A stretch of 38,937 nt of DNA from a virus: the IMG/VR virus record IMGVR_UViG_3300010396_000072, positions 1-38,937 of that record; one strand, 5' to 3'. The notes beneath the pieces were generated by a model that did not search any database, was not told the origin of the DNA, and saw only the letters and a list, made by a program, of their open reading frames with translations. This document shows, in pieces, positions 1 to 38,937 of the stretch (positions are counted from its first letter, which is position 1; each line of letters starts with the position of its first letter). The position numbers and the translations under genes are program-made.

Positions 1-123
1 CCCCGGCTGGGGTGGCGCGGGAACTCAGTATCTGGTCACGCTGGCCGGCGATTCGATGCGGGCCATTCTGGACATTGGGATGCAACTGGCGATGCCAGCC
101 ACCCGTCTGCCGGCCGAGGTCGG
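1..123. repeat. Terminal direct repeat, left copy
   Basis: Bases 1-123 are identical to 38815-38937. The repeat lies inside a reading frame (avd) that is intact only when the two ends are joined, so it marks a circular assembly or a circular molecule and not an att site. The unique genome is 38814 bases. Confidence 0.95.
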
Positions 124-421
124 AGGCGAGGCGGGCGAGCTGTTCGAATTGGCGAAAGCTGGCGAAGGCGCGGATGCGGCTGCCGAGTTGCATGGACAGC
201 TTGAGATCGTCCACCGCCCACACCAGTTGCCCGACCCATTCCGCCTGCCGTGCGCGATCGCGCCAGGCGCGGTGCGCGAGGCGTGCCACTTTCATGGCCT
301 GGGCGCGCAGATCGGCGCCGAAGCTGTACTTGTGGAAGCGCGCGAACCGCCGCACGGCCTGCTCGATATCCACGAGCAGGCGTTCGGCGAGTTTCACGAT
401 GGGCGGGAGGGAAAAGGACAT
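1..421 (-). CDS. avd: DGR accessory variability determinant (Avd), 5' part; gene continues at the right end
   Basis: The start ATG is at 421-419. The frame runs off the left end and, after circular joining at 38814, stops with TGA at 38806-38804, giving 143 residues. The protein is helical, basic and Trp/Arg-rich, with stretches such as YSFGADLRAQAMKVARLA, VWAVDDLKLSMQLG and IRAFASFRQFEQLARLA. These are characteristic of Avd, the four-helix-bundle protein that partners the DGR reverse transcriptase and binds template RNA in known DGRs. It starts 27 bases after the stop of variable-protein gene 1 and is followed directly by the template repeat, the canonical DGR order. The frame was recovered by hand across the contig junction. 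Family assignment is by recalled sequence pattern; a profile search was not run. Confidence 0.9.
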   Translation of the reverse strand, partial: MSFSLPPIVKLAERLLVDIEQAVRRFARFHKYSFGADLRAQAMKVARLAHRAWRDRARQAEWVGQLVWAVDDLKLSMQLGSRIRAFASFRQFEQLARLASDLGRQTGGWHRQLHPNVQNGPHRIAGQRDQILSSRATPAG

Positions 422-448: not shown

Positions 449-943
449 TTACTGACCGGACGCCGGCGACGACACCGACCGCACCGCCCGCACCCGCCCG
501 TCGTTGAGCTGGTGGCTGTAGCCGGCGTTGCCGTCGCCGAAGCTGACGCCCCACGCGCAGTCCGAGGGGGACGACGCCAGCGGCGTGGAGGTCCAGTACC
601 AGTCGCTCTCGCAGTCGAACCGGCTGGTGTCGATGGCGGGGTTGCTGCGGGTGTCGTCGACCAGCGTGAGCAATTCGGCGCGGGTGGGCAGGCGCCAGTC
701 GGTGAAGCCGCCCAGGCGCACGGCTTCGGCTGCGGCCTTCGCTTCGGCCCACGTCTTGCCCTTGGCGGTGGTGGCTTTGGACCACATCAGGCCGGTGCTG
801 TGGTCGATGACGGTGCCGGTGGGAGCGACGCAGCCGTCAGCAAAGCCCATGCTGGCTGCAAGTTCATCGCTGTGCAGCGGGACACCGCGCAACGGCACAT
901 GCAGGTGCACGGTGCCGATGTGGACGATGGTGGATGGATTCAT
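449..943 (-). CDS. DGR variable protein 1, DUF1566 / C-type-lectin-like fold
   Basis: The protein has 164 residues. It has the DUF1566 (Lcl C-terminal) pattern: DHSTGLMW (about 47-54), TWAEAKA (64-70), GFTDWRLPTRAEL (79-91), NPAIDT (101-106) and WYWTST (115-120), then a C-terminal AW-x-V-x-F segment. Residues 123-163 are encoded by variable repeat VR1, so the ligand-facing end of the fold is what the DGR rewrites. There is no signal peptide or membrane segment. It overlaps the preceding gene by ATGA and is followed by avd. Known DGR targets of this fold bind ligands through the variable surface; the ligand here is unknown. Its place in the leftward early/lysogeny operon, away from the tail genes, is unusual. 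Confidence 0.9.
   Translation of the reverse strand: MNPSTIVHIGTVHLHVPLRGVPLHSDELAASMGFADGCVAPTGTVIDHSTGLMWSKATTAKGKTWAEAKAAAEAVRLGGFTDWRLPTRAELLTLVDDTRSNPAIDTSRFDCESDWYWTSTPLASSPSDCAWGVSFGDGNAGYSHQLNDGRVRAVRSVSSPASGQ
455..577 (-). repeat. DGR variable repeat 1 (VR1)
   Basis: This 123-bp segment aligns to the template repeat at 38625-38747 with 13 mismatches and no gaps. All 13 lie at adenines of the TR coding strand (11 A to G, 1 A to T, 1 A to C). The 45-base adenine-free 3' part, encoding GRVRAVRSVSSPASG, is identical in all copies and should act as the initiation-of-mutagenic-homology region. Just past it VR has C where TR has G, followed by AGTA in both. In VR this gives a TAA stop. Confidence 0.97.
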
Positions 944-3715: not shown

Positions 3716-4156
3716 TTACTGACCGGACGCCGGCGACGACACCGACCGCACCGCCCGCACCCGCCCGTCGCAGTTCTGGCGGCCGTAGTAGGCGCCGCCG
3801 TTGCCGAAGAGGACGACCCACGCGTAGACCGAGGGGGACGACGCATAGGTGGTGCTTGACCAGTACCAGCCGCCCTTGCATGTCGGGAAGGCATCGGTGT
3901 CGATGGCCGGTGAAATGCGGCTGTGGTCGGCGATGGCAAAGAGTTCCTGCAGCGTGGGCAGACGCCAATCGGTGAAGCCCGCGAACGCTTTGTTGTTGAG
4001 ATCGGCGATCAGCGCGGGTGCATCGCGGAACGTGGCGGTGCCGACATCCTTGGCCGTCCACATCAGGCCGGTGCGCTGGTCGATGACGGCCGCATGCGTT
4101 TTCGCGGTGGGCTTGGCGGTTTTGCCGGTGGCGGTGATCTTGGTGAAGTGGGTCAT
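3716..4156 (-). CDS. DGR variable protein 2, DUF1566 / C-type-lectin-like fold
   Basis: The 146-residue protein has the DUF1566 pattern: DQRTGLMW (26-33), GFTDWRLPTLQEL (60-72), SPAIDTDAF (82-90) and GGWYWSST (95-102). Codons 105-145 are VR2, differing from the template only at template adenines. It parallels variable protein 1 in layout but is diverged upstream of the VR, so the two are old paralogs kept under one DGR. There is no signal peptide. It overlaps the upstream 59-residue gene by ATGA. It is followed by 163 bases without a gene, apart from the small hairpin at 3701-3713. Binding partner unknown. Confidence 0.9.
   Translation of the reverse strand: MTHFTKITATGKTAKPTAKTHAAVIDQRTGLMWTAKDVGTATFRDAPALIADLNNKAFAGFTDWRLPTLQELFAIADHSRISPAIDTDAFPTCKGGWYWSSTTYASSPSVYAWVVLFGNGGAYYGRQNCDGRVRAVRSVSSPASGQ
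3722..3844 (-). repeat. DGR variable repeat 2 (VR2)
   Basis: This 123-bp repeat aligns gap-free to TR with 16 mismatches, all at TR adenines (10 A to G, 5 A to T, 1 A to C). VR1 and VR2 also share 13 bases beyond the 3' end (AGGCCGATTACTG on the plus strand) that TR lacks apart from TACT, marking the IMH versus IMH* difference. Confidence 0.97.
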
Positions 4157-4332
4157 GACAGTTCCTGGTCGGTGGCATCGATGGCGCTGTTGCGCAGCAG
4201 TGACGCGGTGAGATCACGCCAGCGTTCCGCGCAGCGCGGTGCCGGCACATCGGGTTCGGTGAAACGCGGGTCGCCGCGCAGCTCGGCCAATAAGGCCTCG
4301 CTGCCGTCGATGTCGGGCATCCAACTGGTCAT
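4153..4332 (-). CDS. Small acidic/charged protein, 59 aa
   Basis: It starts MTSWMPDIDGSEALLAEL and overlaps the membrane-protein gene upstream and variable protein 2 downstream by ATGA junctions. A short helical, charged protein with no family recognised. The overlaps and codon pattern support it. Confidence 0.6.
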   Translation of the reverse strand: MTSWMPDIDGSEALLAELRGDPRFTEPDVPAPRCAERWRDLTASLLRNSAIDATDQELS

Positions 4333-36469: not shown

Positions 36470-38329
36470 TCAGGCGGCCTCGGCGAGGTTGGTGACGACG
36501 TCGAGGTTGGCGCGGGCGAGCGCGCAGAGTGGGGGTGGGCTGACGCTGTTGCCGACCATGCGGACGCTGGCGCTGATGGACAGTTTGCGGCCGTCGGCGG
36601 TGGTGTCGATGATGTAGTCGGGCGGGAAGCCCTGGGCGCGGAACAGTTCCTCGCGGCGCAGCATGCGCAGGCCGATGTCCACGATCACGTACGGCGTGCC
36701 CTGCACCAGCACAGTCACCAATGCCAGGCAGTCGCGGGTGGTGATGGTGTCCACCGGTTCGCGCAGGTCCAGCGCCTGGCCGTTGCCGTAGTAATTGATC
36801 AGGAACGCGGCCACGCGCAGCGCGCCGGCTTCGTGTTCGGGCGACAGCGTGCACTCGACTACCGCGTGATGCTCGCCGCCGGCGCTGATGGTGTGCAGCG
36901 GGGCGGCCGCGTCGGCGGCGTTGCTGGTGCCGCGCAGCTTGGCCAGGTGTGTGGTGGCCAGCCGCTGCTGGCTGCCGGTGCCGCAGATGGTGGGCGCGGG
37001 TTTGCGCAGGTCGTGGCCGTCGCCGTTGTAATAGCCGCCGTTGGCTTGCTCGAGGAACGCGGTCATCACGCCCATGGCATGCGCGGCACCGGCAGGTCGC
37101 TTTGCGCCGGCGCCGGATGTGATGGTCGGCATGGGCTCGTCGACCGGGGCGCCCTTGCTGTCGCCGCGGAACTTGACCAGGTGCGCTGCGGCCACCGCAT
37201 GTCCGCCGCTGGCCGTCACGGTTCCAAGCGTTTCAGTTACCGCTCGGCAGCCCGAGCCCCAACGCTGCGCCCGGCCAGGCTGGCCGTCGCCATGTGCCGC
37301 CTGCACGAGTGTCGGCGCAACGACGGCGTGCGTTCCACCCTTGGGCCACGCCGTTATGGTGCCTAGCGGTGCGCTGCTCCCTGCCACACCGTTGGCTGAC
37401 GCGTTCGCACACTGCACAATGAACGGCTCGGCCGCGTCGATCACATAGCGCTTCACGCCCTTGGCGATGCGGCGCATCGTGGCGTCGGCCAGTGGCTTCT
37501 TGCGGGTGAAGATGGACGGGCATGGCACGGTGAAGTCGATGCAGTCGGCGGCGGTTACCAGCGGCAGCAGGCCGGGCGCGTTGCCGTGCGTGGGTGCGGG
37601 CCATACGATGGGGTCGCCGTCGCGGCGGGCGATCAGGAACAGCCGCTTGCGGCTGGTGCCGGCGCCGTAGTCGCTGGCGATCAGCTTGCGCCATTCGACC
37701 ACGTAGCCCAGCACGCGCAGCGCGGCGACAAACTGCGCCCACGTGCGGCCGGCGTGGCGCTTGTCGGGCACCAATGCCTGATTCCACACGCTGACCTGTT
37801 CGCCGGGTGCAGCCACGCTGCCATCCAGCTTGATCACGCGGCCGGTGGTTTTGCAACGCTTGGCGATCAGCGGACCCCACGACAGGATCTGCTCGACGTT
37901 CTCCAGGCTGATGATTCGCGGCGCGTTGCCGGTGCGGGCCAGCGAGCCGGCCCACTTGAGCACCACCCAGCTCAGCGATCGCGTGGCGCGCGAGCGCGGC
38001 TGGCCGCCCTTGGCCTGGCTGAAGTGCGTGCAGTCGGGCGAGGCATGGAACCAGCCGACCGGGCGCAAGCCGACTTCGCGGCGTGGATCCGCGATCCAGA
38101 TGTCTTCGCGCTTGTGGACGGTGAACGGGTGGTTCGCCGCATGCAGGCCCACGGCGAGTTCGTCGTGGTTATAGGCGAGGTCGGGGTCTCGGCCCAGCGC
38201 CTGCTTGAGCGCCTCACTGGCACCGCCGCCGCCAGCGAACAGGTCGACGACGATTTCGCCGGCACGCAGCGCCGACACCAGCGGCTTGATCGGGAAGTTG
38301 AAGCCGGATTGGCGGGAGCCGTCAGCCAT
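36470..38329 (-). CDS. C5 DNA cytosine methyltransferase
   Basis: 619 residues from ATG 38329. Motif I DLFAGGGG (29-36), motif IV SPDCTHFSQAKGG (97-109, catalytic Cys100), motif VI ENVE (143-146), motif VIII GTSRKRLFLIAR (about 218-230), then a long target-recognition region with repeated H-L-x-K-(F/L)-R-G ... TI(T/S) units, and motifs IX/X with RMLRREELFRAQGFP, MVGNSVSPP. It probably protects phage DNA from restriction. No restriction enzyme is seen. Its first eight bases overlap the end of the truncated DGR RT, so it lies exactly where the rest of RT should be. Confidence 0.9.
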   Translation of the reverse strand: MADGSRQSGFNFPIKPLVSALRAGEIVVDLFAGGGGASEALKQALGRDPDLAYNHDELAVGLHAANHPFTVHKREDIWIADPRREVGLRPVGWFHASPDCTHFSQAKGGQPRSRATRSLSWVVLKWAGSLARTGNAPRIISLENVEQILSWGPLIAKRCKTTGRVIKLDGSVAAPGEQVSVWNQALVPDKRHAGRTWAQFVAALRVLGYVVEWRKLIASDYGAGTSRKRLFLIARRDGDPIVWPAPTHGNAPGLLPLVTAADCIDFTVPCPSIFTRKKPLADATMRRIAKGVKRYVIDAAEPFIVQCANASANGVAGSSAPLGTITAWPKGGTHAVVAPTLVQAAHGDGQPGRAQRWGSGCRAVTETLGTVTASGGHAVAAAHLVKFRGDSKGAPVDEPMPTITSGAGAKRPAGAAHAMGVMTAFLEQANGGYYNGDGHDLRKPAPTICGTGSQQRLATTHLAKLRGTSNAADAAAPLHTISAGGEHHAVVECTLSPEHEAGALRVAAFLINYYGNGQALDLREPVDTITTRDCLALVTVLVQGTPYVIVDIGLRMLRREELFRAQGFPPDYIIDTTADGRKLSISASVRMVGNSVSPPPLCALARANLDVVTNLAEAA

Positions 38330-38624
38330 GGGTAATGGCCTTGGTATCGCTGGTGCCGAAACCGCGAAGCATGGTGGCGATGCGGTCGGCGAAGTCGGGC
38401 GCGTGGATCTGCCGCGCCTTGGGCTTCGTGGCGATGAAACAGGTGGTGGCGCGTGGCTGCCACTGGCCGGCGTTGATCTGCTGTTGCAGGTCGAGCAGGC
38501 CGTCGATCCACTGGGATTCGAACTGCAGCTGGTTCTGGCTGGGCACCTTCTGGCGCCGGGCGCACTGCCAGGCGCGGTGGAGGTCGCGGAAGTTGACCTT
38601 GCCTTGGGTTGCACCCTGATACTC
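38322..38624 (-). pseudogene. DGR reverse transcriptase, N-terminal fragment only
   Basis: In frame with the TR, the sequence continues KVNFRDLHRAWQCARRQKV, then WIDGLLDLQQQINAGQWQPRA and FIATKPKARQIHAPDFADRI, the conserved N-terminal signature of DGR-type reverse transcriptases. After DFADRI the similarity ends and the frame stops within about 20 residues (TGA 38324-38322), overlapping the methyltransferase start. The palm with catalytic YxDD is absent. No start codon exists between TR and this segment, so translation would begin at ATG 38807 or a GTG inside TR. A full RT is about 300-400 residues; only about 80 are left. Confidence 0.85.
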
Positions 38625-38747
38625 ACCGGACGCCGGCGACGACACCGACCGCACCGCCCGCACCCGCCCGTTGTTGTTCTGGTGGTTGTAGTTGGCGTTG
38701 CCGTTGTTGAAGTTGACGTTCCACGCGTAGTCCGAGGGGGACGACGC
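38625..38747 (-). repeat. DGR template repeat (TR)
   Basis: 123-bp template of both VRs. On the coding strand it holds ten AAC codons (read as W-N-V-N-F-N-N-G-N-A-N-Y-N-H-Q-N-N-N) and 25 adenines, all in the 5' two thirds; the last 45 bases have none. AAC-rich templates are the hallmark of DGRs because mutating AAC can reach many residues but not a stop codon. It lies between avd and RT. The stop TAA of the VRs is TAT here, so the frame from ATG 38807 (overlapping the avd stop) stays open through TR into the RT fragment. Confidence 0.97.
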
Positions 38748-38803
38748 TATCCCGCGCGCTTGCGACTCTTCCGCACGGCCCATGGTGGGTTGGCACGGTT
38801 TCG

Positions 38804-38937
38804 TCATGGCTTGACCCCGGCTGGGGTGGCGCGGGAACTCAGTATCTGGTCACGCTGGCCGGCGATTCGATGCGGGCCATTCTGGACATTGGGATGCAAC
38901 TGGCGATGCCAGCCACCCGTCTGCCGGCCGAGGTCGG
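38804..38937 (-). CDS. avd: Avd, 3' part (continuation of the gene at 1-421)
   Basis: This is the end of the avd gene: the terminal-repeat copy (38815-38937) plus 11 more bases to TGA at 38806-38804. Joined to 421-1 it gives residues up to ...ATPAGVKP. Its stop overlaps the ATG (38807) of the TR-RT frame. Confidence 0.88.
   Translation of the reverse strand, partial: DLGRQTGGWHRQLHPNVQNGPHRIAGQRDQILSSRATPAGVKP
38815..38937. repeat. Terminal direct repeat, right copy
   Basis: Identical to bases 1-123; see left copy. Circularising at this overlap restores the avd gene. Confidence 0.95.

Follow-up and report, generated by a model that had tools for sequence, protein, structure and literature searches.

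A phage diversity-generating retroelement with a truncated reverse transcriptase, probably the product of a recent microhomology deletion

The DNA analyzed here, referred to as the window, is the entire 38,937-nucleotide IMG/VR record IMGVR_UViG_3300010396_000072. Read on the minus strand across the contig closure, it encodes target gene 2 (carrying VR2), target gene 1 (carrying VR1), Avd, a 161-residue open reading frame (ORF) and a C5 cytosine methyltransferase, in this order (Table 1).

Table 1 Features of the diversity-generating retroelement (DGR) locus in the window and of the corresponding variable slot in four relatives (L001-L004).
Feature	Position	Strand	Description
Ends of IMGVR_UViG_3300010396_000072	1-123 = 38815-38937	.	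Identical repeat; circular contig with a 38,814-bp unit
Avd, 5' part	1-421	-	Rest of the gene at the opposite contig end
Target gene 1 (164 aa)	449-943	-	Lcl_C (PF07603) domain bearing VR1
VR1	450-577	-	128-base copy; 13 substitutions, each at a TR adenine
Target gene 2 (146 aa)	3716-4156	-	Lcl_C (PF07603) domain bearing VR2
VR2	3717-3844	-	128-base copy; 16 substitutions, each at a TR adenine
C5 cytosine methyltransferase	36470-38329	-	Normal downstream neighbor; ATG at 38329
Truncated RT ORF (161 aa)	38322-38807	-	TR-bearing leader, RT N-terminal region to about residue 142 and 18-19 residues of a downstream small ORF
Small-ORF 3' remnant	38322-38377	-	Derived from the small ORF lying ahead of the methyltransferase in L001/L003
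Putative deletion junction	38378-38390	-	13-base microhomology GCCGA(C/G)CGCATCG, which L001 and L003 carry at each breakpoint
TR	38620-38747	-	128 bases, within the 5' part of the RT ORF
Avd, 3' part	38804-38937	-	38815-38937 identical to 1-123; stop and RT-ORF start share ATGA
Variable slot, L001	11373-11928		
Variable slot, L002	11370-11702		
Variable slot, L003	3692-4234		
Variable slot, L004	2545-3529		

Alignment of the TR with VR1 and VR2 placed all 29 substitutions at TR adenines (25 of the 123 aligned bases are A), an outcome whose chance probability of about (25/123)^29 is negligible. The sole non-A difference between TR and VRs, a G/C at their 3' boundary, is shared by intact relatives. 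Avd, encoded across the contig ends, is an intact protein of 143 residues with 98.6% identity to the Avd of L002, its match to the bAvd profile being weak and under the curated cut-off (E=2.5e-4). Both targets are Lcl_C proteins (PF07603, E values of 4e-30 and 2e-32) that carry their VR at the C-terminus. About 240 nt downstream of the TR are still intact and RNA folding of the region after the TR gave an uninformative z-score of -1.8. The substitution pattern and the intact Avd bear out a preliminary description of the window, according to which Avd, TR and two VRs are present in canonical order. The features that characterize functional DGRs were thus found in the form of an A-only TR/VR pair, an Avd adjoining the TR and ligand-binding-type targets ending in a VR, while the catalytic core of the reverse transcriptase (RT; YxDD and GxxxSQ motifs) is missing from the window. 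Judged by this anatomy, the locus is a bona fide DGR.

The TR is located in the leader of the RT ORF and in the reading frame of the VRs, both in the window and in L001, L002, L003 and L019. The RT therefore begins with an Lcl_C-like peptide (WNVNFNNGN...VRAVR), which Pfam scores as Lcl_C with an E-value of 3e-4.

The 161-residue ORF is RT-like through HAPDFADRI and continues into an unrelated tail, no longer representing an RT past residue ~142. When a full-length RT from a relative was searched against all six frames of the window, only its residues 1-144 were matched, at 38807-38376, in addition to the TR peptide at the two VRs. This agrees with the endpoint previously read from the sequence. 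Pfam RVT_1 has no match in the window and the full relative RT detected no other RT in any of the six frames, as had also been stated. The stub ends in IATMLRGFGTSDTKAITHG, and the C-terminus of an 81-residue ORF located downstream of the RT gene in L003 reads IAIMLRGFGGGDTKAITHG. The tail of the stub corresponds to the C-terminus of such a small ORF, with 84% identity over 19 residues when compared with L003 and 58% when compared with L001. Private changes in the stub amount to two synonymous and three nonsynonymous substitutions, too few to reveal relaxed selection. With a truncated RT and otherwise clean VR/TR pairs, the window fits the RT-inactivated (degenerate) DGRs of an earlier survey (PMC3521204).

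Using the stub as a query, nine IMG/VR contigs were identified; these relatives and 79 loci on genome contigs are all RT-bearing. The nine viral relatives encode RTs of 408-459 codons, as read from the match and, for L005 and L006, from inside the leader, with a YVDD motif (FVDD in L005). The comparison of related phages that had been proposed as a check found an intact RT of ~458 residues in the nearest relatives. Specifically, L001-L003 share 96-97% DNA identity with the window over Avd, TR and the RT N-terminus and 93-96% amino acid identity with the stub over residues 1-144, their RTs extending to 458-459 residues and including YVDD. Match values and spacing agree throughout between L002 and locus L010 of Rhodanobacter thiooxydans LCS2, which evidently represent one prophage. 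A further search based on Avd, and so independent of the presence of an RT, yielded 10 viral loci and 10 loci among 233 Rhodanobacteraceae genomes; these 20 loci partly overlap each other and the RT-found set, at least one pair being the same prophage. All 20 keep an RT with YVDD and without an internal stop in the match, so that other RT losses among the Avd-found relatives number 0 of 20. Several peculiarities were seen among the relatives. Seven distant loci (L037, L044, L045, L051, L055, L071 and L088) show apparent internal stops, yet all contain YxDD. In a Rhodanobacter MAG prophage (L019, 8941-10128), three VRs to one TR are found inside 1.2 kb. The second VR of L004 (112-237) is one base short relative to the TR and its target gene is possibly frameshifted.

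The methyltransferase immediately follows the stub, its ATG at 38329 overlapping the end of the 161-residue ORF by 8 bases (ATGGCTGA), as noted before. This arrangement had suggested that the RT had been replaced by a methyltransferase gene. However, in L001-L004 the same methyltransferase is already found downstream of an intact RT, with small ORFs in between, and the ORF preceding it ends in ...ACCCATGGCTGA in L001, L003 and L004 and in ...CATGGCTGA in L002, the methyltransferase ATG lying inside. The 8-base overlap is identical in these four relatives and the window. Based on this gene order and on the origin of the stub tail as the C-terminus of the preceding ORF, replacement of the RT by the methyltransferase was rejected and is assigned next to no probability. 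As judged from the relatives, the overlap is ancestral and the methyltransferase an ordinary neighbor that would have been moved against the stub by a deletion. The gap between RT and methyltransferase resembles a variable cargo slot, as each relative carries different small ORFs (one or two) at this position while the 8-base overlap stays constant.

The window is colinear with L001-L003 to 38378 and then, from 38390, with the sequence immediately preceding the methyltransferase. Relative to L003, it tracks to 2748 and picks up again at 4166 with a 13-base overlap, corresponding to 1,430 missing bases; about 1,440 bases are missing relative to L001. For the window's own lineage, the size of the loss, ~1.43 kb, is estimated from relatives. 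The stretch lost from the L003 arrangement comprises RT codons ~143-458, a 97-residue ORF and, counted from its start, ~60 codons of the 81-residue ORF. Both L003 breakpoints share GCCGA(C/G)CGCATCG, agreeing at 12 of 13 bases and including an exact run of 7 bases at the switch. When 13-mers of the RT part were paired with those of the downstream slot, only 4 of 626,696 pairs were as similar. These features are the hallmark of a deletion involving short direct repeats.

It should be noted that the deletion rests on one contig and is common to no relative. Exact and degenerate DNA patterns of the junction were absent from 2.9 million viral contigs, a scan from which records close to the window may be missing. 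The junction could be a laboratory or assembly artefact, either a PCR/MDA chimera formed at the microhomology or a mis-join, with the phage population itself being RT-intact. The contig may also represent a minority variant selected by the assembler. Chimeras also form at short microhomologies, and an RT is present in every other relative. However, only 7 exact bases in register are common to the two flanks, fewer than assembler word lengths (k-mers), so a mis-join would need a real chimeric molecule dominating the coverage, and the remaining contig is circular and colinear with the relatives across the closure. We consider an artefact unlikely and infer a recent deletion that arose in the phage itself, with diversification having come to an end. 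Intact-RT structural variants could be present in the population, as at one previously reported locus (PMC10907252).

We propose as the probable explanation that a recent, private microhomology deletion of ~1.43 kb removed the RT core and left the DGR frozen in cis. A temperate phage infecting a host group of Rhodanobacter type would have carried an ordinary Avd-TR/RT DGR serving two Lcl_C-domain targets. Illegitimate recombination would then have occurred between two copies of GCCGA(C/G)CGCATCG, located in the RT gene and in the small ORF upstream of the methyltransferase, respectively, resulting in the loss of the whole catalytic core, YVDD included, together with most of the small ORF. An in-frame fusion would have joined the remaining pieces of RT and small ORF. 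Avd, TR, VRs and targets would have been kept, and with cis retrohoming no longer possible, the two VRs would be frozen in this lineage. The first description of the RT as a stub and of the DGR as possibly frozen holds up. A compost-community paper naming Rhodanobacter (PMC13220884) was set aside, the phage it describes being without a DGR.

Drift between TR and VRs at non-A sites is 0 in ~200 (~100 per VR), as in intact relatives, with a computed 95% upper bound on non-A divergence of ~1.5%, and the adenine patterns of the window differ from those of every relative. Together, these observations indicate that the DGR worked after the split from L001-L003. The absence of drift fits both a recent loss and continued activity in trans. 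In the latter case, the DGR would have become helper-dependent, having shed its RT while keeping Avd, TR, template RNA and targets, and would rely on the RT of a related prophage residing in the same host. Everything except the RT core is intact, including the ~240 nt downstream of the TR, and RTs of the same family, accompanied by an Avd with 98.6% identity, are encoded in two Rhodanobacter genomes with closely related prophages. Over its 128 bases, the window TR does not differ from those of L002 and L003, so an RT/TR supplied by a prophage of this kind would agree with the data equally well. For Thiohalocapsa, degenerate loci have been proposed to be acted on in trans (PMC10907252), and Bordetella phage BPP-1 lacking avd-TR-brt was rescued by a donor plasmid (PMC3240598). 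Against such dependence, the Avd family was found in only 4 of the 45 Rhodanobacter genomes searched, and a stable helper-dependent form should recur, whereas the junction was found in one contig and nowhere else. We regard a helper-dependent DGR as improbable, and precedent favours a recent loss of the RT over trans activity (PMC3521204).

The window, read as a recent deletion, documents at base resolution one way of shutting off a phage DGR while sparing Avd, TR and targets. If real in the population, it would represent a natural RT-minus counterpart of the well-matched, RT-plus R. thiooxydans LCS2 prophage, a pair useful for asking whether RT acts in trans between prophages. In kind, the event is ordinary gene loss, RT-inactivated DGRs with clean TR/VR pairs having already been described (PMC3521204, PMC10907252).

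The closest known systems are the intact DGRs of the same family in L001 (IMGVR_UViG_3300038412_000133), the R. thiooxydans LCS2 prophage (L002/L010), L003 and L019, which share with the window Avd, a TR in the leader of the RT ORF and VRs in Lcl_C-type targets, as well as, in L001-L003, the downstream methyltransferase. Unlike the window, they encode a whole RT of ~458 residues, separated from the methyltransferase by one or two small ORFs. In the DiGReF survey, truncated DGR RTs accompanied by VR/TR pairs with A-mutations only were read as very recent inactivations (PMC3521204). These cases, from Ruminococcus gnavus, Acaryochloris marina and Bacteroides sp., resemble the window in their truncated RT and intact A-only VR/TR pairs; however, they are due to a nonsense mutation, an insertion element or a frameshift rather than to a microhomology deletion in a phage (PMC3521204). 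Degenerate loci have also been reported elsewhere; for some of these DGRs trans action is the best explanation, and for one of them intact-RT structural variants exist in the population (PMC10907252). Thiohalocapsa PB-PSB1 is alike in harboring DGR loci whose machinery is missing or pseudogenised and for which trans action was considered, but it contains several transposon-shaped DGRs in one bacterial genome whereas the window contains a single phage locus (PMC10907252). Bordetella phage BPP-1 shares the Avd-TR-RT order and A-specific VR variation (PMC3240598, PMC12875486), but has a working RT and a TR between avd and brt, in contrast to the RT stub and the TR inside the RT ORF found in the window.
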